NCBI GenBank assembly: GCA_025617375.2
Contig: JAMYGW020000017.1
Coordinates: 1-64,000, forward strand
Reading direction: 5' to 3'
Origin: Acarospora socialis
Taxonomy: Eukaryota; Ascomycota; Lecanoromycetes; Acarosporales; Acarosporaceae
Length of the DNA: 64,000 bases
Below are positions 1-45,184 of this stretch, in pieces. Numbering within the stretch: position 1 is the first letter of the stretch; every line of letters begins with the position of its first letter. The notes below the pieces were generated by a model. That model did no database searches. It was not told the DNA's origin and worked only from the letters and a program-made list of their open reading frames with translations. A program made the translations under genes and the position numbers.

Positions 1-3000
1 GTGAGCATTTTTCAAAACTTGCTTGTAAATAGCTTGTCTCTGTTGATGATGAACTCTTTTGATAGTCTGTAATTGTTAATTAATTCTTGCAGTATAATGT
101 ACATCAATACTGATGCTGTTGCAATTTCTTTGAATGAAATAAACATTGTGTACTTAATCAATCTATTCACTATAGTCAATATGCTGTTGAATCTTACTTC
201 TCATGTTGAATCTTTTGATGATGACAACTTCATAATGAAATTCATGATAACTGACTTTCATGATCTGTCTAATGCATCAATTTGCATTACTTTATTGTAT
301 TGTTTATCTCAGTTGATCTTGTTTCATCAACATGAATCACACTTGACAATCATCTCAGTGATTCATCTTCTAAAATCATCAATGTTGCATCTTCTTTGCA
401 TGAGATTCTCAGTGCATTTAACTTTTAAGTGTTCATAAGTTCTGTTCATATGACATTTTTATATGAGTTTTTCATTTGTCAAGAAAACATTCTCTATCTT
501 GAACATTGTTGCTAACTCTCTGATTAAAATTCTTTTGTTGTCTTTCTTCAGAATTTTGATATGAACTCATTTCACTTCTTCATGATCAGATTGTCTGCTT
601 AAGACATCTGCTTTGTCATTCTCATTATTTTTCTTGTAATGAATCTGAAATTCAAAGTCTGCTAACAATTCAGTTCAGCAAATCTGTCTGCAGTTCAACT
701 GTTTGATTGTTGTAAAGTTTCTCAGATTCTTGTGATTCATATAGATCTGTATAAACTTCTTAATGTTTGTGAAATAAGATCTTCATTCTTGCAGTGTCTC
801 TACTATTGCAAGAAGTTCTTTGTCATGAATTTCATATCTTTTCTTGAGTTCTGATAACTTTCTAAATTGAAACACTATGAGTTTCTGTGTTTCATTTTTG
901 ATCTGATATAAGCATGCTTCAACTGCAAAATTGAATGCATCAATTTCTAATATTTTTTTGCATGCTGTCTGAGATATTATGAGATGAGCTGTTCTGCTGA
1001 GACTTCTTTTCAATATGTTGAATGCTTGTTTCTGTTTTTCATTTCAGTGTCATTTCTTGTTCTTTTACATTAAGCATGTGAGAGGTTCTGCTACTCATGA
1101 GTAGTTTGATATGAACTTTTAATAATAGTTTGTCAACTCTAGAAAGATCTGTACTTTCTTGATTCTTATAAACATAGATCACTGTCTTACTGCTGCTGTC
1201 TTTACTGAATTCTTCTTGATGCATCTTGATTAAATCACATATTCTAAAAATTTGATCTCTTGAGTTTTGAATCTGCTCTTTGACTCTTTCATATACAATG
1301 ATCTCTCTTTTAGTTTCATTAATATCTTTTTCACATTTCTTCAGTGCTCTGACAGGTCTTCTGAGTAGATCAATATGTCATTTAAGTATGTGATCACAAA
1401 ATCATCAAGATATTCTCTCAATATGTTGTTGATAAGTCTCTGAAAGATAACTGATGCATTTTTTAATTCAAATGACATAACAGTATATTCATAGTGTCTG
1501 TATCTTGTTCAGAACACTGTCTTTCATTTTTTATCTTCTTTCATTCTAATCTGATGATAGATGTTCTTGAGATCTATGCTGATAAATTACTTAGTTCAGT
1601 TAAGTTGATTCTGCAATTCTTCAATCAAGAATAAGAAATAACTATCTTGTCTGATTATCTCATTCAACTATTGATAATTGACACACAGTTGCTTCTGATC
1701 ATTCAGTTTTAATATAAATAGAATTGAATATTCTGCTGATGATTTTGATGATTTTATGAATTCTCTCTTGAGATTCTTATCAAGGTAGTCTTGAACTTTC
1801 TTGAGTTGATTCTCACTCATTGAGTATAGTGACATTCACTTAGATTGCTTTTCATTCAATAACAGTATCTCATAATCTTATGACTTGTGTTCTGACAAAC
1901 ACATCTCTGATTGTCTCAGAATCTCATATGTGTGCTCTGTTGTATAAATTTCTTTTGTAATTTAGTCAATCTTGAGATTATAGTTTCTTAAGTATGACAT
2001 ACTCAGTATGACATTGTACTTCATGAATTTCATGACATCTAACATCATGTTCTGACATCTCTCTGAAATGTTAATCATGATGTGAGTCTGTTTCATCATA
2101 TCTTTATAGCTTCTGTTCATCATCAGCACTCTTGCTGAATATGATGTTTTTATGATTTTTAGTTCTGTGTCTTGAACTAGCTTTTGTGAAATGTAGTTGT
2201 TCAACACTTCAAAGTCAACTAAAGCATGTACTGTCTCTGACAGCTGATCATCTTATTTAAAATTCATCTTTATCATGATCTTATCTTTGTGTTGTCTGTG
2301 AGACTTCAATAGTTTCTTGATCTCTAGTCTCATTGAGAAAGCTTGCAGTTTTTTGACTTCTCTGCATTCTCTTGTGCTCTTCTTCATAGATCTCTGAATC
2401 ATTGTAATTCTTGTTTGATGAGCATCAGATTTGTGTGCTTCTCACTTTTGTTTGTGACATACTGTTTATCATGTATTTTCATATCATATCTATCATATTC
2501 TTTCTGCAACAGATTTCAAAGTGCTTTCACTTTGTGTAGAAACTCTGATGAAATATAATCTTCTTGAAAGATTCATAGTTCTTTATTTTCAGTCTTCATT
2601 TCTAAAAATAGACTTATGTCAAGTCTGAATTCTTCTCTGACTGCTGATTGAATTATTGTGAATGAAGATTTGAGATGATTCTTGATGATTCTCTGTGTTT
2701 ATTCAATGACTCTCTTGACAACTTAATCAATGTCTTGTGTCTTATTCTGTTCTTGCTTCAAGACAGTGATCTCTTCTTTTAAATTCTGTTTTTCTTGTCT
2801 AAGCAGTTCTTTCTTCAACATTTGACATTGATTTTCTGGGTGCTCATAATCTTTCTTAAGTCTCATGTCAACTTCTCAGTTGTCAACTTTCTCTTAATTT
2901 GCATTTGAATTCAAGACAATTCAGATGCTATCACTGTAGTTTTCTTCTATCTGAATATCATAAGTATCAATCTCTTCAATCTCAGTCTCTAGAACACACA

Positions 3001-4433
3001 GTTCTTTTTTTGCAGTGTTGTCTGATTTAAATCATTCTGTGATATCATAAGTTTCTTGCTTCTGACATGACTTCTTTGAATAGTATTTGACTTCATTCTT
3101 GCTGCTCATGTGCATTCAACACATGTCATCATAGCAAGTCATTCAACTAAGATTGTCATGCACTATTCTTCTAGTCACAATCACAGCTTTTATTCTTTCT
3201 TTTTTGAGCTTTCTGCAGTTTCTCACAAGATGTTTGATAGTATTGCAGTTATAGCACTTTTGCATTTTCTGATTGCTCAACAACTTCTCTTTTGAGAACT
3301 GTTTCATTTCATGTGATGCTTCTTCTGATTTTTGTATTGAAGATTGATCTTGCTCTGTCATGTTGAGATTCATGAAGTTTGAGTATCATTGTCTTTGATT
3401 ATTCTCATGAGCTCTATCTATTCATTTCTGATGTCAGTAATTCTTTTGTTTCATCTGACATTCTTACTGACAATTATTTATCATGATCATTCAGTTAATT
3501 AATTCTTGAAGATCATCTGATCTTTTGTCTTGTGCAATTTTGTTCTTGATAGATTTCTTCAAGTCTCAATAGTATGTTGATGTTAACTGATCTGTGTTTC
3601 ATTGCATAAGTATTGCAAGTCATTGAAACTCTGTCACATACTTAACTGCAGATTCTTCTTGCTGTAATGTGTGAATCTTCTGTTTCACTGCACACTTTTT
3701 ATTTACTATTCTGAAGATTACTCTGAGTTCTTTTTTGAATCATTCTCAATGACTGATATATGAAATATTGACTTCTTTCTTTTTGAGATTCATGACTAGA
3801 AACTCTCTGAGCTTCAATTTGACTCAGTTGAATGCTGTGTTCTTCAGATAGAATATGGTGAACAAGATTTTGTTGATGTTGCTTGAAAACTTCTTGATAT
3901 TAAAGTCAACATAAAGATTGAGTTGAGCAAGAAATTGTCTCAGATTTCATCAATCATTCATGAAGTTCTCTGATGTCTTGACTTTGAGTATTTCATGATT
4001 GATATTGACAACTTTTGTCAGTTTGATGCTCTGTGACACACTGTCTGAGATTGATTCTTTGAATGACATTCTTTATATTGTAAGAGTGTTCAAAGTGTTA
4101 CATTTCAACTGAGGTTCCTTGATTATAGGGCTAGGGTTTATGCTCTTTGATATAAAGATTCAAAGGTGTAGGTAAATGGTAGCTAGTAATGGGTAACTAG
4201 ATAACAGAATTTGAACATGATTGATTCCATAAGAGAATCAATTCTATTATATAGAATGAGAGTCTTGATGCATGCTCAGCACATCTGTCATGCTTCTTGT
4301 TTCTGACATGCTGAGCACATCTGTTGTGCTCATTGTGTCATCATGTGACTGATTCTTGACAGTTTCTGCTGTCATACACTTCACAGGTGTATCTGTCAGT
4401 CTGTTTTAAGTCTCTTTGAACTTGATTGTAACA
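1..4433 (-). mobile_element. G1: Ty3/gypsy retrotransposon fossil, partial at window edge
   Basis: The element reads right to left: 5' LTR at 4096-4433, then gag, protease, reverse transcriptase and RNase H. A CCHC zinc knuckle typical of gag lies in 3143-3373 (CYNCNTIKHLVRNC). The protease-to-RT link lies in 1962-2207, where NVILSMSYLRNYNLKID recalls the usual gypsy sequence. RNase H lies in 783-1013 (YEIHDKELLAIV). Integrase and the 3' LTR would lie left of base 1. The copy is old, carries many breaks and is heavily C-to-T mutated. It sits inside copia copy C2, because C2 sequence resumes directly after 4433. Family assignment rests on domain order and motifs; I could not search a library. 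Confidence 0.85.
4096..4433 (-). repeat. 5' LTR of G1 (gypsy family)
   Basis: About 338 bp, with termini TGTTAC and GTAACA. It is nearly identical over its whole length to the solo LTR at 14101-14438. It is also a mutated relative of the GC-richer LTRs at 46648-46998 and 47184-47504. Confidence 0.85.
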
Positions 4434-5599
4434 ACATCATTTCTTAAAAATATGTGCTCAAGCAGTAATACTGAAAACACAAAGACTTGAAAGATCAGAA
4501 ACATTGTCTATTCATGCTTCATAAAGTATCATATTGAGTACACAAGTAAAAGATCAGTTTTTTAAATAAACAGCAGTCTGAATAACTTTCAGTCAGAGAT
4601 AAGACTTCAGATCAGAGTCTTTGAGCATAGCTTTAGTGAACTCACAAATAGTGTGATTCAGTCACTTTGAAATGTCACTTTTCTCAGATGAGTAAGACAT
4701 AGTAAATTTTCATGTGATGTCATTAATGATGAATCAGTTCTTCAAAACAAGATATTTGCACTTAAGATCAGTGTAAAGATGTTTTAAAGAATAATTAGAA
4801 TGATCTGTCTTCATTAAGATGATGAAGTTCTTGATATGCTTGATTGTTTTGATCTTAAACTTCATGAGAAATATTCAGATAAATCTGATAAAGTTATTGA
4901 TGAAGATAATGAATCACTGTGAACTGTCATAAGTAATAAGTATAATAGATTCAACAATGTTCAAATGAACAAGATTTAATGATTGAGTTGCTCACTCAAT
5001 GAAAGCATTGTAAAAACAACATATCTGTCTGATCTTGATGCATGACTTATAGATGTCTTGATGTTTAGAAAGATTCTTAAAATTGATATCATTGATGATC
5101 TTGATCAGTCATTCAATATTAACATGATCTAAGTGACTTAGTCAACAATGTCATGTTTCAAAAGATATCTTGAATTCTCTATTAGCTGCAAAGACATGAA
5201 ACTGAGATGTATCATTGAGTTGTAGTCAAAATAAGTTCTCAACTTCAGATGCATATTCAATGATCTTATTGTTATGATGTAAAATGCAATTCTTCATGTT
5301 GAACATGATGTCTTCAACTCACATACAAATGCTGAAAATGAAATATGCAGAGATAGTAAGAAAGTGCATAATATTATTGAGAATAATCTCTTATATGTCT
5401 TCATCAGAACAGACTAGACATAGAGAAACTTGACTCTTTTCTATAATCTTAATCACTTCATTAGCTGTAAGAAGAGATCTATCAATAAATTCATAATTGA
5501 TGAAGAACTTATATGTTGAGCACAAGTGATCAGAGATTGCTGTGTTGACTGTTTATATGTTCACAGTGTGAGACTCAATGACAAAAGCATGAAAATGAA

Positions 5600-5730
5600 G
5601 TTTAATAACATCATAAGCTTCAAAATGAAGCTCAGAGACATGAGCTTCAGAATAAAGTTCAGTGATGTAAGCATCAGAATGAAGTTTGTTGACATGAGTC
5701 TCAGAATATAGCTTGATGATGTGAGTCATA
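5600..5730. repeat. Short tandem repeat inside C2 gag region
   Basis: Units of about 27 nt follow each other, each with a core like GACATGAGCTTCAGAATAAAG. The matching part of C1 (about 15700-15790) carries the same array, so the repeat belongs to the element family rather than to this insertion. Confidence 0.55.
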
Positions 5731-6814
5731 AAGCTAAAAATTGTGACTTAATCACTTTGTCTTTGTTCTTGTCCTTTTGCTTAGCAAACTTAGCTGTATC
5801 AAACTTCTTCTTCTTATAAAGATATTTGAGAAAGCAATTATGCTTCTCATGATCAGTCTTCTTGCAGTGAGTGCAAAGAAGTGACAACATTGATTTGAAA
5901 TTCAATCTAAAAATCAAGTTTGAGTTCTTATTTCAAAAGATCATGATCACTGAGATCTTTTTATTCTTCATTTTAGTCTCATCAATAAGTTTGATGACAA
6001 GAGCATCAAAGATAGAAGTAACAACTCAAATAAATTGACATTTAATTATAACAAAGATATTGAAAGTAGAACTCAGATTGTTAAGAAGAACTGTGAGTAT
6101 AACTCAGTTTGAAAAGATAAAATTTATTCCTTTCAAACATCATGACAAAGTCTTAAGCTGATCAACATAGTTCTTAATGAACTTAAAAGTGTCATAATAA
6201 TGACTGAGAAGTGTAGTGAATGTGAGATATCTGACATTAAATTCTTGAATTTCATACAACTTCTTCAATTTTAATCACATCTGATGAGCAGATAGATTTT
6301 TAATAAAGCTCTTAGAATCATTTTGATAAGAGAGAACTATAGTAGTGCATGCTCTGTTATATTCTCTACTTCAGATGATGTATTTTGACAAGAATTTTGA
6401 GTTCAGATTGTTGTTCACTTCAGATGTGACAATGAATTTAGAAAAAGTGTTGAAAACAACAGTTCATAGATTTTTGTTCATAAGAACAAACTTGATGTTG
6501 ATAACTCATAAGACATAGTTATCAGTGTCAGCAAGATGAGAAAAGTTGAAAGTGTCATTTGAGAAAGTCATGATTATGTGAATTGTTTCTGCAGAATAAA
6601 CATCAAAATGTGTAAACTATTAAAAAGATGAATAAGAAGAACATCATTCAAGAATATTGAGACAATGACTCAAGAAAGCATGCAGATAGACTATTGAGAA
6701 AGAGTCATTTGAGAAAGCATTCAGATAGACTATTGAAATGAGAAAAGATGCTGTTGAAATGATGACAGCAAGATCAATTGAAGATAAAAAAACATTTTAA
6801 GTAAGACAGAAAGC

Positions 6815-6827
6815 TGAGCTCATAATC
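6815..6827 (-). other. Primer-binding site of copia C2
   Basis: Next to the LTR, the minus strand reads GATTATGAGCTCA. It resembles the complement of the anticodon stem-loop of initiator tRNA-Met (TTATGAGCCCAG). Copia-type elements are known to prime from an internal fragment of that tRNA. C1 has the same site at 14576-14588 and C4 a similar one at 28457-28470. Confidence 0.55.
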
Positions 6828-7001
6828 TGTTGAATTTGAAACATTTTTATTACTTAATATTAGATGTCTTAATTATCTAGAAGACTAGAATACACAAAGA
6901 ATAACTTTTGTGTGTGGTGACTAAGTGTATCATGTGACACAAAAGATTTCAACACTAGACTGAATAGAGTTGAACTCCTAAAGAACCTTTTAATTCCAAC
7001 A
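6828..7001 (-). repeat. 5' LTR of C2 (copia family)
   Basis: 174 bp starting TGTTGAATTTG and ending TTCCAACA on the plus strand. It is the reverse of the LTR pair of C1 and of the LTR at 10184-10347. Confidence 0.8.
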
Positions 7002-7015
7002 CAATACTAAAAAGT

Positions 7016-7651
7016 GAGAGAAAATCAGCTTGAAGAAGATCATACAAAATGTATGAACTCAGAGATGATATAACATCAGTCAGAAAAAGAAGATCAGAAG
7101 ATGAAATTAAGTCACTGAATCATTCTTCAAAAAAGTTCTTCAGCTTCATCAGAGACTGAGAAAGACTGAAAGTTCAGAATTGATTCAGTTTTGTATGAGA
7201 TGCATTGATTATAATCACTTTCTTCACAAGATCAAGATTTCTGAAATTTTCTTCATCAACTACTTGTGTGACAAGAAAGCAGAGACTTCACAACATATGC
7301 TGCTGACATGTGAAATCAGAAAGAACTCACAGCTGCTCATTATTCAGAAAGAAAGAAAAAAAGACTTTATATAATTTCTGTTCATCAAAGAGCTGATTCA
7401 TGAGACTGTTAAATGAATTGTGTGTGACAGTCATCTAAGTCAGTTTCAGTTTATGATCAATGTTCTCTATGACTAAAAGTGGAGTCACTCATCTTATGTC
7501 TTATTCACTCAACTTTTGCATCTAATCTACTTTTGTACAAGGGACATTATGAGCTTAGATTTTCATTCTTGTAAGATTTCCTAAGATATGAACTGAAGAG
7601 AAGTTCTGCTTAGCATAGCTAGTTCAGTGTAAGAATAATAATAATAATAAT
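7016..7651 (+). mobile_element. 5'-truncated LINE (non-LTR retrotransposon) with target-site duplication
   Basis: A segment of about 636 bp is flanked by a perfect 13-bp duplication, AATACTAAAAAGT, at 7003-7015 and 7652-7664. It ends in a (TAA)n run at about 7634-7652, a known kind of LINE tail. It carries the C-terminal end of a LINE-type protein (7180-7374). Long target duplication, simple-repeat tail and 5' truncation together fit target-primed reverse transcription. Most of the LINE was probably never copied here. The insertion lies in C3 sequence next to the C2 boundary. Confidence 0.75.
7180..7374 (+). pseudogene. C-terminal fragment of LINE ORF2-type protein
   Basis: A 64-residue frame reads HFLHKIKISEIFFINYLCD, then QHMLLTCEIRK. 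This matches the layout of the end of fungal Tad/I-clade LINE proteins: a basic block with conserved L-H, a Cys pair, then H-x-L-L-x-C. These proteins copy LINE RNA into the genome. Only the tail remains, there is no catalytic domain in the insertion, and base use is strongly AT-biased. Recognition is by pattern only. Confidence 0.5.
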
Positions 7652-8152
7652 AATACTAAAAAGTTTATTGATGTTTATTTCTTTTTTCTCTTCAAAGATT
7701 TTATTAATTAATGTTTAAAATATTAACAGATCATCATTTTATAGTTTGTTAAGTTTGAATATATAACTGAAATGCAAATAATAAACAAAATCAAATAACT
7801 TCATCATTTTCTTACAGAAATTGACTTTTTTAATAATGATAATTCTATTGTTATTGATGCTGATAATTGTGATATATTCAGTATCAATTTTGTTTATGAG
7901 ACTGTTGATTACAATCATGTTAATTTTAAGTTTATTTTCATATTTGAATAAATAGTTGATAAACTCATTAAATCTCTATTTGTTGTTGGAATATGACCCA
8001 TGTTACAGCTCACTTAGCTGTAGACTGAGTCAGGTTTTCAGCCCTAGTGCACTAGTCATGTGATCACTTAGTCATCACACATCAAAAGTTATCCACTTTG
8101 TATATTCTAGTCTTCTAGATAATTAAGACACCTAATATCAAGCAATAGAAAT

Positions 8153-8357
8153 TGTCAGGAGTGCAATACTCACGATGAGAAGTTAAGTTCTCAGTAGTGT
8201 TCTATTGGGCTCAATGCCATATAGTAAATAGTATGTGATGTGAAGCCGTGGCTATCAGTATCAAGAGTATAAGTGTAAGTCTGTTGTTGTTCTACTCTAG
8301 CTACTGTGCGGAAGTTATATAGGGCCTAAGCGAATAGGCTAGGGTATAACCATAACA
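8153..8357 (-). repeat. 3' LTR of the gag-only element
   Basis: 205 bp, TGTCAGGAG to CATAACA. It is highly similar to 9492-9672 and to the reverse of 52815-53020. Confidence 0.85.
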
Positions 8358-8579
8358 ATATGCCCACAATGAAAACGAAAAAGCAATGCCCCCATTGCAA
8401 AATAGCATTCGCACATGCCTATTCGCCAAAGCGAATACCACAGCGATTGGAGAACCCCATAGTAACTAGTATGCAAATCCCTATGCCTCGTGTCCTTCTC
8501 TTTGCATATGCTCTATAAGCTTGTCATAGGTGTCGAAATGGAAGCGACAGCGAGGGCATTTCGCGACTGATTTGTATGC

Positions 8580-9374
8580 ATCGTTAGGTGGATCGTAGTA
8601 GTAGGCCTCGTAGGCATCGTCGGCGATTGGCGGCGTCGTTGCGGGTGTAGTGCTCGTTCGATATTGCGGTCATAGCTTCTGCTGTTGTAGGGCCAAATCG
8701 CCGAGTAAGAGCTTCACTCCACATACTAATCGTATGGAGTTTGGAGCGTTCGCTGGGGCTAAGTTCCGAATGGAACCATTCCAATGCAGTGCCTCGAAGG
8801 CTAAGTTCGACGGGTATAGGCTTATTTGGTGTTCGAGTGGCGATTTCCTTCAGGCAATTGACGAATAGAAAGACGTCATGGATCGTAGGGCCGTTTTCTG
8901 AGTCTGAAATCGTCGATTCGGCGTAGGTTTTAGGGTCGAAATAGCCTATGTCTTCAGGCTTAATGGCCTCCGTACGGGTATGAAGGATAGGGGTAGTGTA
9001 GTCGTTGATATGGGTGTCTGAATAGCCTGAATCGAGGTCGTCGATATAGGAGGCTGACGTGGAGGTTCGGCGGAAGGCTCAGGTGTAGGTGTATGCCCTA
9101 TAGGCTCGGATTCGCGGGGTAGTAGGTTAAATCGACGAAAGGCCTCGTCAAGGACGGTATTCGTACGTCTATCGAAATCGTCGTTCATACGTCGAATGAG
9201 GTCCTCGTTTGAGTGGTGGATCATAGCTATGACGTCTCGTCGAGTCATAGGCAGATCGTCTTCATGTGACGGCGATGACGTGGGTTCTGGAGGCTCGCGA
9301 GTAGGTGAGGATTGGGTGGTATCTTGAGCAGTATTGGCCGACATGCTTGCTTGACGGCGTGTGAGTGGTGCCAT
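8580..9374 (-). CDS. gag-like coding region of the short LTR element
   Basis: The minus strand from 9374 reads a Ser/Thr/Pro-rich start (MAPLTRRQASMSANTAQ) with a charged helix-like stretch, NEDLIRRMNDDFDRRTN. The 8584-8784 part reads MEWFHSELSPSERSKLHTIS followed by a W-x-E-A-L-x-x-R-F-G motif. This is the pattern of the structural retrotransposon gag domain, which coats element RNA. No zinc knuckle is seen. It is a fossil-type virus-like gene in an element lacking pol. Confidence 0.5.
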
Positions 9375-9465
9375 AGGCTGACGGCGACGACAAGGTGGGT
9401 GTATTCGACGGGCCTAACGAAAGGATCGAATGCTGAGGTGGATAAGGAGGTTTATGTGGAGGTAT

Positions 9466-9489
9466 GAAATCGAACCGTTGGTGCTACCA
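9466..9489 (-). other. Primer-binding site of the gag-only element
   Basis: On the minus strand, two bases after the 5' LTR, the sequence starts TGGTAGCACC and continues with CGGTTCGAT. It resembles the complement of the 3' end of initiator tRNA-Met (TGGTAGC, then GGTTTCGATCC in fungi). This fixes the element's orientation. Confidence 0.6.
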
Positions 9490-9491
9490 TT

Positions 9492-9672
9492 TGTCAGGAG
9501 TGCAATACTCACGATGAGAAGTTAAGTCCTCAGTAGTGTTCTATTGGGCTCAATGCCATATAGTATGTGATGTGAAGCCGTGGCTATCAGTATCAAGAGT
9601 ATAAGTGTAAGTCTGTTGTTGTTCTACTCTAGCTACTGTGCGGAAGTTATAGGCTAGGGTATAACCATAACA
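9492..9672 (-). repeat. 5' LTR of the gag-only element
   Basis: 181 bp, the shorter partner of 8153-8357, with the same termini. Confidence 0.85.
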
Positions 9673-10183
9673 GAAATGTTTCAATTTTCAACATTTGTTA
9701 TTAAGTTTTGTCACTTTCTTAGTCAGCTAGATCTAGCTGCAATGACTTTATAAATTAAATCAATGAAAATTCAATTAGTTGTGATTTGAGTAACTAACTT
9801 GTTGAAAATCGAGTCTAGCCGCTCGCTTAGTTAGTCTTATTACATAACTTAGAAAACGCACACAGCCGTTTAGTTTTAACAACATCAACATCAACGCTTT
9901 CAACAAATATAACAGATTATAGTCTATATCATAGTCATTACAACTTCTTAAATCATCAACTGATTTTTTGTTGTGTGTTTAAGTTCTGATCTTGTTGTTG
10001 CTTCACTTTTTGTGTTTTTGCTATGTCTTTTCTTTTAATTGTTCTCACTTTTTATTTCACTGTTGACTTGATCTTTTTTATGATTTCTTTGTTATTTCAT
10101 TGTTGAGTTTATCTCTTGATAGAATTGAAGAATCTATACTGACTAGTGACTGAGTATTTAGATTGACTAGATTTGAGAGAGAA

Positions 10184-10347
10184 TGTTGAAATTAGAAGAT
10201 TCTTTAGAAGTTCACCTCTATTCAATTTAATCTGTGTCACATGATATTGCTTAGTCATCATTCACAAAAGTTATCCTTTGTGTATTCTAGTCTTCTAGAT
10301 AATTAAGACACCTAATATCAAGCAATAGAAATGTTTCAAATTCAACA
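10184..10347 (+). repeat. 3' LTR of C3 (copia family)
   Basis: 164 bp, from TGTTGAAATTAG to TTCAACA. Same family as 19363-19536, with a short internal length difference. No target duplication can be tested because the other end is outside the window. Confidence 0.75.
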
Positions 10348-10591
10348 AATTCTTATTATCGATCTGATTTCTGAATGTTTTTCTAAATTTCTTCAACAAC
10401 AAACAAATTTGGTATAAAGTCTACATGATTTGATTCCACATGCTAATAGTCTATTCTACCGTTTTCAGCATTGAACATTCCACTAACCTGGTTGGAAGGT
10501 TCTTATTCTACCGCAATTATCTTTCCCGAAGCTTGGTGCAGACCTAGAAGCACGGCTCATAGAGGCTTTTGCTGGAGTAAAAGAGTAACGC

Positions 10592-11278
10592 ATGAAAATA
10601 GTTCCTCTCACTTGTAAAGACGCGCCAGCCTATCAACGCACAGATTGCTTCTTCTGCTCCGCGCTGACCGCATTTTCGACCCCCGACGGACGCCCAGCGC
10701 CAATGCCTAGCTCCTTCTTTGGGCTTCCACCGGAGATCCGCACCATGATCTACAAGCTGATTTACGTCAAAAACACCCCGATTTGGAGTGAGGACGACCA
10801 CCACTGGGTAGTGCCCCATCAGAATGCCTTGATCTGTCGGGTCTTCAGAGAGGAGGCACTCACCATCTACTACAGCTGGAACACCTTCCGGATCAGATAC
10901 CTCAGAGAATGGGATTTCCTTGCTCAGCAAAGTTTTTCTCGCCTCGTTCGAAGAGTCCAATTAGAGATTTCGCCTTGCACGATAGACTGGATCCGAGAAT
11001 TCAACGATAAATTGCACTCGAGATTGCCAGGTCGGAAGCGCTTGACGGCCGTTTTTACTGATTTCCCACGCTCGTGGGCACGCAACGCCACATTCCTCGT
11101 CACTTATATGAAGGTTCTCATCGAACCCCTCATCGTCGATGAAGTGGTAATGGAAGGGTTCTGGTGTCACGACCGTCATGAGATTGCAACCAGGGCATTG
11201 GAGGGACCGGTTCATTTGCAGTGTCGGAAAGAGGTGATGGAATGGTTGTCTGAGGTTGTGTCAAATACGGGCTTCTGA
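10592..11278 (+). CDS. 2EXR / F-box-like fungal protein
   Basis: A 228-residue frame in normal-GC sequence. From residue 38 it reads MPSSFFGLPPEIRTMIYKLI, the hallmark of fungal 2EXR and F-box-like proteins (LPxEIRxxIYxL). It is followed by ICRVFREEALTIYYSWNTFR around residues 82-101, the second conserved piece of that family. Many such proteins are large lineage-specific families of unknown role; F-box relatives recruit substrates to ubiquitin ligases. The ATG at 10703 just before the motif is at least as likely a start as 10592, because the first 37 residues have no family look. The C-terminus is not recognisable. Isolated gene, with transposons on both sides. Confidence 0.65.
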   Translation: MKIVPLTCKDAPAYQRTDCFFCSALTAFSTPDGRPAPMPSSFFGLPPEIRTMIYKLIYVKNTPIWSEDDHHWVVPHQNALICRVFREEALTIYYSWNTFRIRYLREWDFLAQQSFSRLVRRVQLEISPCTIDWIREFNDKLHSRLPGRKRLTAVFTDFPRSWARNATFLVTYMKVLIEPLIVDEVVMEGFWCHDRHEIATRALEGPVHLQCRKEVMEWLSEVVSNTGF

Positions 11279-12870: not shown

Positions 12871-13030
12871 AGTCAACAGTTTCGCAGGTAAAGAGGAGGA
12901 GATGAACACTTGTGAGTCCTAGAGAAGAGCTTTTAAATGTGCAAGATTCCTGCCTGAAGAATATGAACTTTGTACAGGTGTATCGCAGAGTACATACTGT
13001 AAGGTAAGGTAGGGCAAAGATTAAGACTAG

Positions 13031-13058: not shown

Positions 13059-13063
13059 CTATA

Positions 13064-19536: not shown

Positions 19537-19576
19537 GCAACACATGTAATAACTCATTGATTTTATATTATTATTC

Positions 19577-20732: not shown

Positions 20733-20833
20733 ATTGTCTTTCTTCTTAGATACTGATTCTTCAGCATCTCTATGACATTGTATTGTTGTTAAGAGTTTGT
20801 TTCATTCTGAGAATCTCACTAGATTAAATTGAG

Positions 20834-22017: not shown

Positions 22018-25000
22018 GACTGACTGAATCTCATCATCAGACATATCTTTTTAAAGACATATTGAACTTCTTTCAAATCATGATATGTCTTTGTTTCATC
22101 TTTGTCTTGACTGCACACTGCTAATGCATCATAGCACAATCTGCTGTCTCTGATTCATGATTTAATTGTGATATTTGAGAAGAATGAGAAGATTGAAGAG
22201 AAAAAGAGAAATAAGATGACTTTCAGTCATTAGACTGTCATTTTGCTTGCACATGATTAACACTTTATTTCTTTTCTTCAGATGTATCATTAAATCTTGA
22301 ATTATCTACAGACATAATGACTTCATCTCTTCTGTGTCTTTATGACACTTTTAATAATATCAGTCAGTGTTACATGAGTCATCTGAGTTGACTACAGTCA
22401 TCTTCTGTCTTTTTTCTTCACTCTGATGTTGTACTTCTGTTGTAGCTCTTGTGCATCTGTCATGTTCTGTTCTGAAATTCATTGATTATACTCAGTAAAA
22501 TAGTTCTTTCATTTAATCTTATATCACAACTTGTCTTTCTGTTGCTGTTTTTCTAGAATTTCTTCAATTTCATACTTTTTACTCTCATCAGTGAGTTTGA
22601 GAGATGAAAGCATCAGTGCTATGTCTTTGTCTTTGCATTGATCATACAACTCTAGATAGAAAACATGAAAATGTTATGAATTCAGTAGATAGAAGATAGA
22701 TGTAGACAATATGCTTGCTTTCTGACAAGATTCACAATGCAAAAGAGTTCTGCAAACTTATGTGAATGTTTCTATTGAGATTGCTTCTGACTTAGGTTCT
22801 TTGTTGACAATAAGACAAGGTCACTCTTATTATAAGTCTTTGATTTGTGCTTTTAATTATAAGTCTTGACTTGTGACATCACAAGATTTTTCATTGCTTT
22901 GACAGCTCTTCTCTAACAACATGCAGCTTCTTTACTCTATTCTTGACTGTGAATATCTTCTCTTTTCAGATGTTGTTCTCAATGCTGTAATGAATGAAGA
23001 CATTATAATCTGTAAATACATAGTAGAAACTACATCTGAGTGTTGCTTGCTTTGCATTTATATATGTAAATTCTGCAAGAGATAATAGATTGACTCAGTT
23101 TATCTTATTCATTGTTGCAATAGTGCAAAGATAATGTTCTAGAATTTGATTTTGACACTCAGTTTGCTTATCTGTCTGTGAATGAAAGATGATGCTAAGT
23201 TGATGTTTAATCTTTGTCTGATAGCATATCTCTGATCAGTAACTGCTCATAAAATAGAATCTCTATTCAAAACAATTTCTTTGAATGTTTCATAACAGCA
23301 TACTATTTCTTCAAAGAAGACATCAGCTAATTGTATAGTGATAAGAGTTTTACTTATAGATATATATCTGATCATCTTAGTATAATGATTGATCACAACA
23401 AAAATCACATCATAGACACTGATATCACACTTGCTAGACAGTAATTCAGTGATCATATTCATGATTATCTTTTTTCAAGAATCATTTGAATGTGATAGTG
23501 ACTGCATCTCATCATTTAAATGTGATAGTGACTGCATTTCATCATATGAATGATGTCTTGACATCTTTACTCTTTGACATACATCACATGAGAAGACATA
23601 CTTCTTTGTATTCTTAGTCATTCTGATCAGTAATACTTGCATAACATTGACTTTAATGTTCACTCAATATCAAAGTGTTCTGTCAGTTCATCATCATGAT
23701 GACACTTCAGTAGCTCTGTTCTAACTGATGTCTCAGATGATATATATAACTGTTCATTATAGCAAAGCCAATTCAGTTAAATCAAATGCTCATCTCAGAC
23801 TTCTGATGCAATGACAACATTTTTTTTTTGTCTCACTGACTTTTCATGCTCATACAAGTGCATCTGTCTCTTGTAGAGAATGTACTAACAATAGAAAGAA
23901 TTTGCTACTGTCATTATATGTCATTTTGTGACTAGTCAATTTCTGAACTAGTACACATGAAATGAGTTGTCTACAGTCAATAGTTTCAGCAGCAGAATTA
24001 AGTACACTTGCTATGCTGTGTCTTTGTACAGTCAGCAATTCTTTGCTGTCTGATCCTTTCAGTATATGTTAACTGAGTTGAAGTTTTCTAAGTTTCATGT
24101 CATTTTACTCTTCACAAGCATGACAAACTGTCTCAAGATGACTGATAATCACTGAGAACTTAAACATAGTTGCAGACATAGCTGCTAACTTTCTTTGTAA
24201 TGTCAACAATAGTTTATTAAGACTTTCACTGATAACTTTGACATAATCTGAGTGTCTTGATGATGCATTGACAGAATTTGTCTTGCTTGATCTATGCAAA
24301 ATAACAAAATCAAAGATGACAAGCTTCACTGCCCATCATGTCTGTCTTTCATTTAATGTCTTAATGTTCATAAATTCACATAGATTATTATGACTCATTA
24401 GAACTTTCACAGATTGCACACTATCTTTGAGATAGTGATGTCACTGCTTGAATGCTTCAACAATAGCTAGAAGTTCAAGATCATGTGTCTCATAGCTATT
24501 CTTCATTGAGAACAGCTTCTGTAATCAGTAAACAATGAAGTGTCACTGTTCAGATACTTGCAACTGAGTATAAATTTCTGTTACAGCATGCTCAGAAGCA
24601 TCAGTCTTCATTTGATTTTTAAGTTCAAGATTGAAGTGAACAAGAACAGATGCAGACATAAAGACATCTTTAAGCATGCAAAATGTCTTCACTGCATCTT
24701 CAGATCATTCAAATGACTCTAACTTCTTTTCATTCTTACTGTCTTTTAATAGATTCATAAGTGAGTTCACAATTCACAAATAAATCTTGATAAATCATCT
24801 ATAGAAGTTGACAAACCCTAAGAAGACTTGCATCTCTTGAAAAGTTTTGAACATCAATCAATTCACAATGATTTCTACTCTTTGTGAATTCATTATTATG
24901 TCAATGATCAATATTATAAAACTCAAGAATTTCACAGTATTCATAGAGAAGACACACTTCTTCAAATTCACAAAGAGCTTATAGTGTTGAAGTCACTTCA

Positions 25001-27440
25001 GTATTTTACATACATGGTGCTTGTGCTTTTTTTTTGATTGTGAGTATATAAGAATATCATTCAAATACAATACACAAATGAAATTCATATGTTCCACAAG
25101 CACACAATTGATATAGACTTGAAAAGTAGCAGATGCATTGACAAGTTCAAATGACATGATTAAATACTCAAAGTGATTGTAACATGTGCAAAATGCTGTC
25201 TTTCACTCATCATTCACCTTTATGCAGATGCAATGATAGACATTCTTAAGATTCAGCTTGATGAAAATCTTTGCATCACTTAGTTGATTCAGAATCTCAC
25301 TTATTAAGATAAAAAGTGATGATTCTTCATGATAATTTGATTCAACTCACAGTAGTCAACACATAGTCACAAGTCATCATTCTTCTTTGAAGCAAACAGC
25401 ATTGAAGCATCAGTTGAGCTGATGAAATGTTTGATTCAATTCTTCACTAAAGTGTTGTTCAGATAGTTCTGCAAAACTTGAAGCTTCTTGCTTGATAGAT
25501 TATATAGAGATTTATGTGAAAAATTCTCATCATTAATATCAATGACATGATCATGCTTCTCATGAAAGACAAGACATTCTGTTTCAGTTTCTAAGAAGAC
25601 ATCTGCATACTCAGAATACATCTGAGATATAGAAGATGTGATGATCATGCTTTGAAGATGTACTGTTTACATCTTAAATACAGTTCAAAGAAGTGCACAA
25701 GTGATCAGATCTTCAGCAGTTTCTTCAAACTCTTCTGAGTCTTTCAGTGTAAGAGTAGATGTTTTAATATTGAAGTGTCAGATCTGTGATTCACAGTTAA
25801 TGTGAACTTACTTCTTTTTTAGAACAAGTAGTCTCATTACAAACTTGAGTCTGTCTTTCTTCAATGCATAAAAGACATGTTCACAGTCACACTTCTTGTC
25901 TCAACTGTCTTTTAAATGATACTTCACAAGATAAGCATCATAACAGTATACTGAGTGATCATTCATAAATAGAAAGTTTGATACTTCTGCATCAAACTTC
26001 ATCATTTTGTTCATGACAGTGAAATGCTGACTTATCATGTTCAATTCAGTGACACTATTCAAAAGAAAGAAAGCTGAAACTTGATCTTCTTTCACAACAA
26101 TGACTTCTTTGATCACAATACTAGATCTAGTCTCTACTTTTGCTCTTCATTGTGTTGTCATAAAAACTTCAACAAGACATTCTTTTTTTTTGACTGAGTC
26201 ACTGAGAAAATGCAAATGTTGTTAGAGTTGTTCACTGACTTAGTGCAATCACTAACATAGTGATTCTTTTCTTGACAACAATAAAATGTCACATTTAACT
26301 TCATTCTTAAGCAAGCACTAAATGAATCTGACTTGACATCAACATTGTTATGTTGTCTCAAGTGTATCAATTTCAAAGTTCTTTAATTATTAGAAGAAGA
26401 CATCTGACTTGAAGTATTCTCTGTATAAAAATCATTGGTTGACTTTCTTACAGTTGTAGTGCTGAGTTCACAAAGATTATTCTTTAACTGTGTCACTAGA
26501 ACAACTAAACTATTTTGCTTGCTTGAAAGATCTTAATAGTTCAACAAAGTCTTTCTGATTTCTGATTGTAGCTTTGTAAAGAAGTGCATCACTAACTGTT
26601 TCTCATTATAGAGTGACAGCTGCACTTCAAGAGTGCTAAGATATGCTGTAAAAGCATGCACACTTTGATTTGACTTTTGTATGATCTCAGTGTATACTTG
26701 CACAATGTGTAGCTGATGATTCACTGAGTCTTTGATGAGATTGAGAAGATAATTGATAAAGTATTCTCAAGAGATTGTCTCAAGAAAAATCATTTCTTAA
26801 TGTCAATATCATGCATTCTGTGATTCATTCACTAGAAATTGCATCACATATAGAATTTTTGTTTTATTATTAACAAAGTTCTTAAACATCAAGCAAAACA
26901 TCATCTCAGCACTTCATATAAAGTTTAGATGCTTTTGTATGAATTTTTCAGCATAAATATTTAGATATTTAAGACAAATATTTCTTTTAATCATTACTGC
27001 ACTGAGATGATTCTCTGCAAATCACTTACTAGAGACTCTGAATGAGATTTGCTCTGATATCAAAGAATTATTGTTTGCTTTCACATCAAGTGAGTCATCA
27101 ACAGATGTTTCATTGACATCTTGATGTTGCAGCACTTGAACTTTTCTCTGAATAGATGCAAGATGATGTCTTTTTAAGAATAAGTCTTTTTTCTTTTCTG
27201 CTTGCTTTAACTCAGCATTTAGATTCTTAAGTGTTGATGTGAAGTGATTGATTTCATGTCACACTGTTTGTGATGAATCTATCAAAGATGAATTCATCAC
27301 AAGTGAATCATTTGAATCTGCATGATTTCAAGATTGATTTGATGAATTTGACATATCATCATCACTTTGATGTTGTCAGCTTTGCATTTGCATATTATCA
27401 CACAACAAACTGTCAACTGTAACAGTAAAGAGATTAGAAT

Positions 27441-27676
27441 TGTGAGTTTCAATATCTATCTATCACAGATAGATTACTAGAGTAGATTTATGACAGTGTG
27501 AGATATGATGATATGCAAGCTGTTTGATGATAGAATGACACAATATATCTCTATTAATATCAAGACTAATCTCTGAAGAGTCTTATGTGTGAAGAAGTTT
27601 CATACTTATAGACTCTCACTTAGCTATGCTTACTAAGATGTAGCACTGTGACTGTATTTTGTTATTTATTCTGACA
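27441..27676 (-). repeat. 5' LTR of G2
   Basis: 236 bp, TGTGAGTTTCAATA to CTGACA, followed by the duplicated target GAACT. Confidence 0.88.
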
Positions 27677-27726
27677 GAACTGCACAAGAACACTTCAATA
27701 TTTTGAGAAAAGACTAGAATAGAATT

Positions 27727-28065
27727 TCAGAAAAATAAAGTCATTTTGTTGATCAGTTGTGATAGCAGTTGAGAATTTTCATTCTCTGTCTCATCATTAT
27801 CATCAGCAAGCTCTTGAGCAAGATATCTTGCTTTGATGTCTATTTGAGCTTCAGACTGCTTTAAGATTTTCTGCAACTGAGCAATTTTGATTAAGAGTGT
27901 GAAAAGTTGTTTATTAAGAGTCTGAGAGAGCTTATTTTCAGTTTTTAAGTGTATAAACTTTAAAAAGTTAAGAGAAAGACTGATGCAGAAATGATCTTGA
28001 TGCATATACTCAGTGCACTTCACAGACTTTGAGAAGTCAGACAACATTGAAGAATTGAGTGGCAT
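27727..28065 (-). CDS. Coiled-coil ORF of the X repeat
   Basis: 112 residues from the ATG at 28065. Residues about 55-90 (NKQLFTLLIKIAQLQKILKQ and on) have a leucine/isoleucine heptad pattern, followed by an acidic run, ADDNDETENENS. The left arm X1 carries a diverged copy of the acidic part around 13990-14057, so the ORF belongs to a duplicated unit. No family recognised. The arm is mutated but less stripped of Pro than the nearby elements. Confidence 0.35.
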   Translation of the reverse strand: MPLNSSMLSDFSKSVKCTEYMHQDHFCISLSLNFLKFIHLKTENKLSQTLNKQLFTLLIKIAQLQKILKQSEAQIDIKARYLAQELADDNDETENENSQLLSQLINKMTLFF

Positions 28066-28281
28066 CACTATACAAGTTCATCTTGCTTATGAATTTACTT
28101 CTTATATATAACTGACTGATTTCATAGCTTAGAAAATATCACCCTTCATTCACTTAACATGATGCTCATAGTAGCAGTCAACCTCAACAGTATACATTTC
28201 ACTATATAGACAGTATAGCACAAGTATCCTTTAGACCTTTCACTAGGTTCAATACTTTTAATATTTAAATAATTTAAGTGT
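28066..28281. other. Short spacer between X2 and C4
   Basis: AT-rich single-copy-looking sequence with no frame or repeat recognised. It may be the promoter side of the X ORF. Confidence 0.3.
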
Positions 28282-28456
28282 TGTCAGAAATTTAGACCTT
28301 ATCTAGTAGAAATTCTCATAGAGTTTTAGGTCATGTTCTTCAGTAGCCTATTTGAGCTTAGTGGTGCACACCATATATTGTGTAAATTAATTCTAGATAC
28401 TCTAGATAATAATGACAACTAATACTATCTGCATGCTTTGATCTTCAAAACTGACA
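28282..28456 (+). repeat. 5' LTR of C4
   Basis: 175 bp, TGTCAGAAATTTAG to CTGACA. A primer-site relative (ATAATGAGCTCAG, 28458-28470) follows. Confidence 0.85.
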
Positions 28457-31235
28457 GATAATGAGCTCAGATTGTGTGTAGAATGCTTAAACAGTGAAGA
28501 AAGATCTTGTTGTCATTGATATACAGAATTGTTGTCAATACTCTAAGAGAAAGTGTGAACTCAACATAAAGATGAGCACTCAACTGTTCAAAAGTGTTAC
28601 AGACATTCATGCAACATTCACACAGATAAGAATTGAAATAATGATCTCATGAACATCAAAATTACATTCAAAATCAATAGATTTGTCTGAAAACATGATA
28701 GTTTTCAACTTTAATGATATCATCATACAAATCAAACACAATGTTGTCTTCAGATCTTTTCTTTTTACAAATTGTGAAGCTGAAAAACTCAGTGAACTAT
28801 TCAGTCTGAAAGATGTCAATTAAATACATCTTGATCAGCTTTGAACTGTAAAATATAGTCAATGAAACAGAAACAAAGTCAGAATTAATGATAATGATGT
28901 TAGTTTCAACAGCAACAACTTTAGACACTACAATGTCTGCAATGATGCAAACTGCAATTTTCAATTCAGTCTATATTGACTGAGTCAATAAAAACAACAA
29001 GATTATGATTATCATCATTCTCAATGTTATCTTCAAAGTAACAGCTATCATAAACAACATAAGAACTGCAAAAGAAATGTGAAAGCATCTGCATTCAATT
29101 TATATTTCTCATGAATTTAATCTTCAGTACATTCTCTTTATCAATATTTATGATCTTTGTCTGAATCAATTTGCATCAATCAATAACTATACTCTTAAAT
29201 ATATGAAACTTCTGATCAAAATTGCAGCATTTAATTTTGTTATTAATGAAATGTTGAAGATTATTCTCTTTCTCATCAATCTAGAATTCTTTTATAATCA
29301 ATGAATGACAGCAAAATGTTTCACTGTCTGAATCATACTTTCTTTACTTAACAGTCTAATTGCAGAGCTTATTGACAAACAACAACTCAAAGAAGAGAAC
29401 AAAAATCTGACTTTAATGAGAATGTTCAAAAAAAAGAAAGAAATAAGAACAAGAAAAAGAACAAGTAAATGAAGAACAAGAAGAAGAATGCTGAAAAGAG
29501 CAAAGAAAAGAATGAAAAGTACACATACTATAATAAGAAAGTTCATGCAGAGCAGAACTGCTGACACAAATATTCTGACAAGATGTCAAATGAGATCAAG
29601 AAGAAACAGAAAGTCAATAAGAAAAAGAGTTTGAATTTAAATGAAGAACATCATTTCAACAAAGATTCACTCATTCTGACAGCAATCATCACTATTTTTG
29701 TGATCAATGAATCATCATGACTAGCTGATTTGGCAGTCACACAGCATATATACTGTGACTGTTTCACATTTTTGACAATCAAGATGCTCAAAGATGAACT
29801 TATGATATGAGAAGTGACTAAATCAACAATTGTTCACAGTATCAGAATTGTCAAACTACAACTGAAATGCAAAGATGACATTGAATTTTATTAAATCACT
29901 TTAATGAACATTTACTTCATGTCAAATATTGATCTCAATCTCTTCTTGATAGAAACAGTCAAATTAAAAGAAATATCTGTTGAAATTCACAAAGAAATAC
30001 TACAACTAAAGAACAAGATAAAAAAAACAGTCAGATATGCATCTAGATCAGATAAGCTGTACTATTTACAGACTTTGACAGATAAGCATATTCTCTTTAA
30101 ACAAGAAACACTGTCAGTCATTGACAACAATAAGATATTATAAGTCACATAACATTGATACTTTGAGCATCTAGAAGACTTAAGTCTCAAGTGTGTGTTT
30201 AAGAAACTGAACATCAACAACATTGATCTACACAGACTTGCAGATAAGTCATCTCATTTATGCAATATCTGTCTGACAGCAAATCAGAAATGACAGCTGT
30301 TCAAGCTTTCTCAATGGTGAGTCACTAAAGTGACTAAACTTGTTCATATTGATGTTGTTGATTTCATTACATCAAAAGCATTTGATGAATCAGTATGATA
30401 TATAGTCTTTATGAATGACTATTCTCACTGACAATATGTTTGCAACATAAAGATCAAAGATCAGATTAAAGATGAGATTGCATGCTTTGTTAACATGATC
30501 TATACACAGATGCATAAAATCATCAAACATATATGAATTGACAATGACAAGAAGTTTAAGAATCAAAGCACTTATTGACTGACTACAAAACAACAGAATA
30601 AGCTACAAGACTACTGTTTCTTATGAATCAAAACAAAATGATGTCACTGAGTAAAACAATGATCTACTGACTGAAAAGACTAGAGTCATGATAATTAACA
30701 GTGAAGTATCACACAACTTGTGATCAAAGACAGTCAAAACTGTCTGTTATCTACTGAATTGACTATCAATCTCAGCAATAAAGAATGACAAAGTTTCACT
30801 TCAGCTACTCTACAAATCACTCAACAATGATAATATGACTGATCTGATCAATCTTGACACATATAATTCTTTGAATGCATTGCATATGTGTATATTTTTA
30901 AAGAAAAATGACATCAAGACATCAAATTTGAGACACAAAGCAACAAAAACATACTGATAAGCTATGAGAAACACAATCAGTATAGAATCTGATTGCTGAA
31001 GAAAGAAAAAGAAAGTAGAGTGATTACAATTCAAGATGTTCAATTTGATGAAGAATTCAGAATTTATGACTTGAATATAAATTTTAAGCTATTCAATGCT
31101 TTCAACTCTGAACTTCATGTGACACAGACTGATGACTCTAACTATAGAAACTCAATGAACAATGCAATGAGTATAAAGCAAGAGAGTGTGAGCAATAGTA
31201 CTTCACATTCATTTCATGCACATCATTCTTTCATG

Positions 31236-31297
31236 CATCAATCACAAGCTTCTCATCTTGTGCATCAATCACAAGCTTCTCATCTCATGCATCAGAT
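31236..31297. repeat. 30-nt tandem repeat in a C4 frame
   Basis: The unit CATCAATCACAAGCTTCTCA plus about ten more bases occurs twice in a row, giving the repeated peptide HQSQASHL in the 30993-31691 frame. Confidence 0.7.
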
Positions 31298-33361
31298 GCA
31301 AGCACTGTTGATATTAATGTGTTTATTTTTCATGTTTGATATGAAAAGTCTCTCATCTTTATATGAATCACTGTATGCATCTTTGAATGAGATAACTCAA
31401 TTAAAGAAGTACAATAAGAAGTTTGACAATAAGATGAAGAACAAAAAGAAAAACATAATGAAGCAACAATCATCAATCAATGTGTCAATGCTGTCAAGAT
31501 GCTCAGACAGAGAACAAAAGAAGTTTTTGAGATTCAGTCTCAAGATCATTGTTGTTTTGTCTGCTGTTCATGATACATTTCTCAATGCTATCATCATCAA
31601 CACTACAGAAGAGCATGAACTTGAAGTTCAGTCAGACAGCAAATTCAGCATCTATTATGAGACTATTGTGAGCTTCAGTTTCAAGCACTGAAAATAGATT
31701 ATAAATGATGAGATTAAGTTCTTGAAGACTAATTCAACATGAGATCTAGTGACACTATCTCTGAATTGCTGTGTTCTACATGAAGAAGTGAGTTTATCAT
31801 TACATTACAAATGTGATTCTAATGACACAATCATACAATATAAAGCACAGTGAGTTGTCAAAGACTTTGAGCAACATTTCAACATCAACTACAACAAGAC
31901 ATTTGTCATCATCATTAAGTTCATGATCTACTAGATCATCTTTGTCATCACATGCATACTATGACTATGAGTTGAAAAAAATGAATGTCAAGATGATGTT
32001 CTTGCACAGTGATTTGAAAGAGATGATGTACATGATACAACTCACTGAATATGAGAAAAAAGAAAAAAAGATGTGTGAACTGAAGAAAGTCTTATATGAA
32101 CTAAAACAGTTTTCTTGTCTATGATATGAGATAATGCACAAGTTTCTTGTTGACAATGACTATATGTGTCTTCACACAGATAATAGTGTGTTTCTAATCA
32201 GCAATCTCATCATTGTTGTCTATATTGACAACATCTTGATGTGCAGATCAAGCAAGAAAGCAATCTGCAATCTAAAGATTAAATTGAGCAGTCAGTTTGA
32301 AATGACAAACTGTGAGACATGCAAGCACTACTTAAACATGCAAATAATGCACATAAAATTCATTAAATTCTCATTCTGTCACAGAAAACTTATCTTAAGA
32401 AGATGCTTATCAAATTTGATCTCAACAACACAAAATCAGTTCTGATTTCTATGAATTCTGATACACATCTGATACAGATTAAGAAATTCTTTATTTCACA
32501 GTTAATACAGCAATATCAGTGTGCTATAGACTCTCTTATGTATGCAATGACTTAGATGTGTTTTGATATTGTCTTTGTGATATCAATACTCAGTCAGTTT
32601 TCACACAATTCTGATGAGATGTATTGAAAAAATCTTGAAATGAGTGTTCTGCTATATATGTGACATCTTTAATGTATTGTTGAATACAAATTAAGTTCAA
32701 ATTGTCTTCAACTTCTAGAGTATTCAAACTTGAACTGAGATGAAGATCTCAAAATGAGAAGATCTACAATGAATTACATGTTTCAGCTGATAAATGAGTC
32801 AGTTTTCTGATGTTTCAGACATCAAAAAACAGTCACTCTGTTCTTCACAGAAACAGAATACATGACTGTGACAGAAATAATGAAGAAAGCCTGTCTGAAT
32901 GCATGAACTACTACAAGAAATGAGACTTAAGAAGTTCAACATGATGTTTATTCAAATAAATAATACAGAGACTATTATCTCAATCAAGAATTCTGAGTTT
33001 TATATCTGTACAAAACACATCAATATATGTCATCATTATGTACAGAAAGTCAAATCACAAGATTTTATTCATCTTAACTACATTTTTATCAGTGACATAA
33101 TTATCAACAGACTTACTAAGTCACTTTCTATCATCAAATTCACACACTTTATTGATCTTATTGATCTTGTCTGTCACTAAAGATTCTGTGATCTATATGA
33201 AAGAAACATTGAGTTGTTGTTTGATGAATTTCAATAAAGTGCATTTGAATCACATCAAAGTCAATTGAATCTTTGCAATAAACTGAGTGATTTATTATAA
33301 AGATTCATTCTTTTTTCTCTTCTTACTCATCTCACTGTTGCTGAAACAGTCTGAGAGAATG

Positions 33362-33537
33362 TGTCAGAAATTCAGATCTTATTTAATAGAGATTCTCATA
33401 GAGTTTTAGGTTCACACTCTTCAGTAGTCTATTTGGGCTTAGTGGTGCACACCACATATTGTGTAAATTAATTTTAGATACTCTAGATAATAATGACAAC
33501 TAATACTACCTGCATGCTTTGACCTCCAAGACTGACA
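33362..33537 (+). repeat. 3' LTR of C4
   Basis: 176 bp. Directly after it the base composition jumps from AT-rich to GC-normal. Confidence 0.85.
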
Positions 33538-45180: not shown

Positions 45181-45184
45181 TTCT

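Follow-up and report, generated by a model that had tools for sequence, protein, structure and literature searches.

Results

A dinucleotide signature at the start of contig C17

We analyzed a 64,000-nucleotide stretch of the Acarospora socialis genome (contig JAMYGW020000017.1, positions 1 to 64,000 of the forward strand), referred to here as the window, in which old repeats have lost almost all of their CG, CC and GG dinucleotides. The window is the start of a 110,609-bp contig (C17) in a genome of 31.1 Mb and 38 contigs. At 1-8, 13.25-33.25 and 41.75-46.5 kb, CG is nearly gone and CC/GG are rare, with CA, CT and GC retained. In the blocks for which an expectation was computed, CC/GG stand at 4-11% of expected: positions 1-8000 contain 10 CC, 22 GG and 0 CG, where base content predicts 180, 192 and 186, and positions 15001-33000 contain 26 CC, 15 GG and 2 CG, where it predicts 471, 374 and 420. 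Per-kb odds across 1-8 and 14-33 kb are 0-0.3 for CC and 0-0.1 for CG, and 1.3-1.8 for CA/TG, 1.2-1.7 for TC/GA, 0.55-1.23 for GC and 0.4-0.8 for TA. The features of the window, and one set of clusters outside it, are as follows:

1-8150: saturated block of repeat relics, CG 0 and CC/GG near 0; holds a reverse-transcriptase relic and an element A copy (4434 to ~7000)
1239-1688, minus strand: reverse-transcriptase (RVT_1) relic with four TGA, one TAG and one TAA in frame
4434-6434, plus strand: piece of element A used as query; 40 genome matches, 18 of them near full length, including this one and that at 14928-16935
8151-9655, plus strand: long terminal repeat (LTR) element lying as an insert within the saturated block; its composition is normal, and it served as unmutated reference
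9899-10351: already mutated stretch
10400-13000: gene island with an open reading frame at 10592-11278; single copy in the genome, CC and CG normal, spared
13251-33250: saturated block; at least two other repeat families occur here beside a second copy of element A (14928-16935, minus strand)
21247-21819, plus strand: 190-aa open frame lacking Gly, Pro and Trp; a relic whose repeat has nine other copies of ~1.5 kb or more
30993-31691, plus strand: 232-aa open frame lacking Gly, Pro and Trp; a relic whose repeat has 18 further matches, seven near full length
38001-41750: partly mutated block that retains some CC but has lost most CG; few detectable relatives
40014-40262: repeat of 249 bp resembling a miniature inverted-repeat transposable element (MITE), with 43-bp inverted ends; nine other copies retain CC and CG
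41751-46500: saturated block, by dinucleotide counts, beyond the range first predicted
48500-54000, plus strand: stretch with a partly mutated repeat; the sole other match to 50000-52500 is C3:2384274-2386791, fully mutated
52811-53021, minus strand: solo LTR belonging to the 8151-9655 family; itself unmutated, it lies within the partly mutated repeat
Outside the window: clusters of stop-free reverse-transcriptase matches at C1:2.65-2.80 Mb, C14:11-85 kb and C10:187-265 kb

The original prediction, made from the letters of the sequence, had described this near-absence of CC, GG and CG beside common CA, TG and GC, and the counts bear it out. The range that it gave, 1 to 33,537, holds for the most part, but stretches inside it are unaffected (~8.25-9.75 and 10.25-13.25 kb, with short ones near 4.1-4.4 and 14.1-14.4 kb), and beyond it 41.75-46.5 kb is saturated as well. 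At 38-41.75 and ~49.25-54.25 kb the signature is half developed, with CG mostly lost and CC partly retained, which gave a first hint that CG is lost before CC. The absence of Gly, Pro and Trp from the 190-aa and 232-aa frames was likewise correctly read: the odds of CC, GG and CG are 0.00 there, so these residues cannot be encoded. Classical indices of repeat-induced point mutation (RIP), whose calculation in 500-bp intervals had been proposed as a check, are passed by 0 of 55 saturated intervals. Six 1-kb samples of the genome, too small a set to estimate the mutated share genome-wide, comprised five of normal and one of intermediate composition. As a separate observation, a protein kinase fragment lies at 47814-48395, its frame crossing unknown bases (34 X; 100 N in the window), and this N stretch may be an assembly gap.

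Context of the changes in the LTR element

Direction and context were read from alignments to the intact LTR element at 8151-9655, counting a C where the next base was identical in both copies, on both strands, with the reverse direction as background. The search listed 75 matches from 40 scored candidates out of 138, and 20 loci were cut out, the window's own included. Context counts come from nine of the 19 loci L030-L048, taken as non-overlapping chains; L033-L035, L040, L041, L043, L044, L046 and L048 were left out as matches to the stretch 9899-10351 (L044 includes a part of the LTR as well), and L047 is the same locus as L038. In the six saturated copies, C-to-T change reached 284/286 at CG, 322/376 at CC, 78/656 at CA and 67/693 at CT (CC versus CA, Fisher p = 1e-136). 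Neither an equal depletion of CpA nor an even spread over contexts, the outcomes named beforehand as contrary to the prediction, is thus found. That CA and CT are kept is largely true, but 12% and 10% of them have changed in these copies, with a reverse background of 3% (CA 19/598) and 2% (CT 14/648), and the most deeply mutated pair described below has lost about a third.

Partly mutated copies give the order of contexts. Copy L032 has changed at CG 40/47, CC 26/76, CA 5/103 and CT 6/115, and L031 at CG 28/54, CC 17/76, CA 3/97 and CT 7/108. The light copy L030 (CG 14/78, CC 5/87, CA 3/101, CT 8/109; reverse 6/71, 5/89, 4/101, 7/108) rises above its reverse background at CG alone, and weakly. 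The order is therefore CG > CC >> CA = CT. By arithmetic on the fractions kept, the rate of change at CpG is ~2.5-5 times that at CpC, which in turn exceeds that at CpA or CpT roughly 20-100-fold; given the first of these ratios, the two preferred contexts form a hierarchy and not one equal rule. The upstream base also matters at CC: in the partial copies TCC changed in 17/33 cases and CC after other bases in 26/113 (p = 0.002; C and T cells only). At CG, the TpCpG preference of the Pucciniomycotina type is absent from L031 and L032 (TCG 29/44, ACG 18/23, GCG 13/22, CCG 8/12). In the saturated copies L036-L045, the contexts next to change after the loss of CG and CC were CCT, in excess (38/193), and TCA (35/165). 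L031 (C5:2367700 region) also carries a gradient, its 5' LTR near-intact (CC 11, CG 3) and its 3' LTR strongly mutated (CC 4, CG 0).

The same order in other repeats

A second, younger family, defined by its reverse transcriptase (RT) and unrelated to the LTR element, has the same context order. One open copy compared with seven others gave CG 15/27, CC 65/237, CA 5/919 and CT 2/633, and in the reverse direction CG 0/12, CC 22/194, CA 1/915 and CT 13/644; these copies are 95.6-99.3% identical over ~750 bp and share descent, so that the same sites are counted repeatedly and the events are not independent. A third repeat, at 48.5-54 kb, was compared with its sole match on C3, here requiring the preceding base to be identical as well. 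CC had changed to T at 68 of 76 sites, none keeping its C, and CG at 4/4; in this deepest pair CA (192/626) and CT (161/495) had also gone at ~31-33% (reverse CA 12/439, CT 15/344). Changes of C to T before a C or a G, as originally proposed, are thus seen in two unrelated element families and a third repeat. The same counts exclude both CpG-only decay and CpA-type RIP, as had been argued, since CC is lost too and CpA changed at 5/919 against 65/237 for CpC.

Element A was too far gone for this comparison: its 18 near full-length copies, among the 40 matches and on 10 contigs, each retain 0-2 CC plus GG and 0 CG in 2 kb, and inter-aligning them for CC and CG context was uninformative, all 18 cores being saturated. 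Between ribosomal DNA (rDNA) copies L005 and L006, the latter containing ~900 N, 1/324 CC had changed and no other context. A search with an integrase returned only 10 matches and was not used.

Speed and strands of the changes

When an element inserts, its two LTRs have the same sequence. Between the LTRs of eight elements, 1450 aligned bp now contain 49 transitions and 1 transversion. In four saturated elements (L036, L038, L042, L045) neither LTR keeps any CG, and their 736 bp carry 1 transversion; the RT family shows 129 transitions and 5 transversions, its copies with up to 21/31 CC changed carrying 0-4 transversions per 750 bp. The changes are almost solely C:G to T:A, a broad trait of RIP, and the LTR-pair counts argue for fast hypermutation and not slow decay; under ordinary methylcytosine deamination, much more background change would be expected. 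Some of the divergence may be masked by gene conversion between LTRs. Plus- and minus-strand changes are intermixed in all nine LTR-element copies tested.

DNA hit and DNA spared

Both the gene island and the young LTR insert had been predicted to be spared, and so they are: the island, the only one tested, is single copy with normal composition, and the 8151-9655 element is of normal composition too. CC and CG are also normal at the methyltransferase-gene loci and in rDNA. The 18 element A copies, on the other side, are saturated.

Short repeats behave less uniformly. Ten copies of the MITE-like repeat (114-250 bp aligned) retain CC and CG, and because nine of them lie in DNA of 44-56% GC, length and location are not separable here; the window's own copy has 2 CG against 3-6 in the others.

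Cytosine methyltransferase genes

The genome contains three C5-methyltransferase genes, of RID, DIM-2 and DNMT5 type; a look for such genes was among the checks proposed with the original prediction. The RID-type gene (L002) has its catalytic motifs intact, with FCGAGG, PPCQ, ENT, QARKR and GN present across two exons, and 11 of 13 relatives match it at near-full coverage with 49-73% identity. The motif layout gives it its class label and makes it a putative ortholog of Neurospora RID; a RID-type enzyme is another broad RIP trait of this genome. For the DIM-2-type protein, identity is 62% to the counterpart in Pleopsidium flavum, the closest named relative, and up to 85% to other relatives, and in a tree of 27 rows it falls in a fully supported group of eight including P. 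flavum, which places the host, on protein phylogeny, as an ascomycete near Pleopsidium. Pleopsidium is lichen-forming. The third gene (L003, C8:614 kb) matches the solved protein 7r76 along two stretches (E = 5e-68 and 2e-67), deposited under the name 'DNA repair protein Rad8'. We take 7r76 to be Cryptococcus Dnmt5 and L003, presumably, to be of DNMT5 type.

Reverse-transcriptase relics and open copies

The RT search found 151 matches, 150 of them listed, from 150 of 435 candidates scored; these are related copies. Stops interrupt 127 of the 150 listed matches, comprising 418 TGA, 60 TAA and 21 TAG, and, counted over every frame of the saturated blocks in the window, stop triplets number 2710 TGA, 1603 TAA and 741 TAG, so that TGA makes up 84% of stops in the relics and 54% in the saturated DNA at large. 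Mutation at CpC and CpG creates stops from TGG and CGA only, that is TGA, whereas RIP of the CpA type makes TAA and TAG from Gln codons. The TGA excess is as predicted for stops arising from CGA and TGG and not from CAA and CAG.

Three open copies (L084, L085, L091) hold 1-3 CG in ~750 bp, no GCC, one ACC and one TCC each, and few CGN codons. Of the 38 CC/GG in L084, 22 fall within codons for Pro, Gly or Trp and 4 at positions 2-3 of other codons. The same two classes account for 158 and 106 of 410 in the DIM-2-type gene, 84 and 66 of 238 in exon 1 of the RID-type gene, and 29 and 23 of 89 in the window gene. From one 750-bp stretch in three copies, this pattern suggests open elements shaped by repeated mutation followed by selection for function; the RT element may instead have been AT-rich from the start.

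Discussion

A probable RIP-like process with CpG/CpC specificity

We consider it probable that these repeats record a RIP-like genome defense specific for CpG and CpC, the reverse of the CpA rule. Under such a defense, C-to-T change would strike multi-copy DNA in bursts and on both strands, at C before a strong base and in the order CpG > CpC >> CpA = CpT, and repeated rounds would bring old elements to saturation, with no CG and almost no CC/GG, as single-copy genes and the newest inserts escape. The process would be triggered by homology in the sexual cycle and performed by the RID-type cytosine methyltransferase, perhaps together with DIM-2, with a neighbor preference unlike that in Neurospora; among the three methyltransferases, the RID-type enzyme is our candidate. 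It works like RIP in some broad features, and departs from the classical CpA type: CpA is not preferred, TpA is not enriched and the indices are negative. A RIP-like process with another next-base preference had been foreseen in the original prediction, and the signature does go with repeats, spares the island and arises fast, its dependence on repeats being by association.

Several observations weigh against this interpretation. For the partly mutated 38-41 kb region, the search found short pieces and a single longer match on C22 (0.75 kb, 71%), so that repeat restriction, suggested by the spared island and the saturated element A copies, is either not strict or obscured by relatives that were lost or diverged too far. 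RIP in the broad sense needs repeats of at least a few hundred bp; no clean length threshold is apparent here, because LTR-sized matches are mixed: among ten of ~200 bp, four are intact, one (L072) has 3/5 CG changed and five are mutated, three of these five adjoining further element pieces. Among the 150 listed RT matches, 23 are stop-free, 17 of them in the three clusters with frames of 380-1329 aa, and two stop-free copies are 99.3% identical over 753 bp; long repeats are therefore not all hit at once. The reverse counts in the RT family (CC 22/194, CT 13/644) mean that its reference copy is not unmutated and that CT is not wholly silent. Finally, no significant runs of same-strand mutations were found in nine LTR-element copies. 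For positions 38001-41000 in particular, leakage, lost partners and loose targeting are the options.

Alternative explanations

Two overlapping processes, in which CpG is lost through one enzyme or methylation and CpC through a RIP-type enzyme, would fit the fact that CG is always ahead of CC, as in the light copy L030 (14/78 and 5/87; reverse 6/71 and 5/89). We find this unlikely, though far from negligible: in L031 and L032 the contexts rise together and both strands are used, and a single graded enzyme is simpler.

Slow decay would require only that repeats be methylated at CpG and CpC, for example by DNMT5 or DIM-2 in heterochromatin, and then deaminate spontaneously without induced mutation. 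Both gene types are present, CpG is the fastest context and strand runs are lacking, all as this explanation would have it. It is nevertheless strongly disfavored. CpC is not a usual site of maintenance methylation, and the loss of CC and the saturation with almost no transversions depart from the CpG-only, clock-like course of methyl-CpG decay. The single transversion in 736 bp of saturated LTR pairs, like the 0-4 per 750 bp in heavily changed RT copies, would by our arithmetic demand that deamination outpace transversion by a factor on the order of thousands.

It is very improbable that a cytidine deaminase edited retroelement cDNA prior to insertion, even though the affected elements that could be named carry reverse transcriptase or LTRs, because such editing should leave a one-strand mark where strands are mixed in each of the nine copies tested, and because LTR pairs changed independently after insertion. 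Classical CpA-type RIP acting on an odd starting composition, for which the RID- and DIM-2-type genes could be cited, is refuted by the counts (CpA 5/919 and 5/103 against CpC 65/237 and 26/76) and by the failure of all 55 saturated intervals on the indices.

Relation to known systems

The closest likeness found is to Coccidioides, a genus of the Eurotiomycetes and so of a class other than the host's. A 2022 review states that repeat-induced mutation there especially affects CpG and CpC (PMC9409882), the two contexts affected in the present repeats. The comparison concerns the affected contexts (PMC9409882). With these contexts already named for Coccidioides repeats, the suggestion that the process was possibly undescribed went too far (PMC9409882); we count this as the one precedent found for CpG plus CpC and claim no absence from print.

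In Neurospora crassa, RIP follows the order CpA > CpT > CpG > CpC, as given in PMC5496416. The present genome shares with it fast, repeat-targeted C-to-T change and RID- and DIM-2-type genes, but differs in its order, CpG > CpC >> CpA = CpT. Trichoderma reesei RIP is described with CpA about equal to CpG, then CpT and CpC last (PMC5496416; PMC10170752); CpG is thus a main target in both, whereas CpA there rivals CpG and CpC is least affected. For the Aspergillus nidulans MATE and Microbotryum Ty1 elements, CpG-biased RIP-like mutation is reported with CpA, or TpCpG, as the second context (PMC2621366). The CpG preference is common, but here CpC comes second and T before CG is not preferred. Rhizoctonia solani AG8 also undergoes CpG-biased C-to-T hypermutation; it is a basidiomycete, however, in which genes and repeats are hit alike and the changes are heterozygous SNPs (PMC4014442). 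In its Table 2, CpC changes (one per 214 bp) are more closely spaced than those at CpG (one per 370 bp), although CpG is what the paper emphasizes (PMC4014442).

Among lichens, RIP has been reported in Endocarpon with positive classical indices (PMC3897900) and described through GC content in Cladonia rangiformis (PMC12542154). A 2025 survey of 1,239 fungal species presents results suggesting that RIP-like defenses share a CpA preference, in a main text where the terms CpC and CpG do not occur (PMC12543289), and none of CpA, CpC, CpG and CpT occurs in PMC11969663.

Implications

Against a shared CpA preference, the present genome stands as a clear counter-example, with saturation and with several families affected. 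Mutation of the CpG/CpC type may be overlooked elsewhere, since none of the saturated intervals passes the standard RIP indices. The finding also makes testable what sets the neighbor preference of RID-type enzymes. One possibility, which we hold tentatively and at a little less than an even chance, is a RIP enzyme that reads a strong 3' base, G and then C, as a mirror of the CpA rule, and an RT lineage that has purged its targets and is still transposing; a lineage would be able to do so because CGA and TGG are the only codons that such mutation turns into stops. This suggests another evolutionary outcome of genome defense, in which reading frames survive longer and elements can purge their targets instead of dying.

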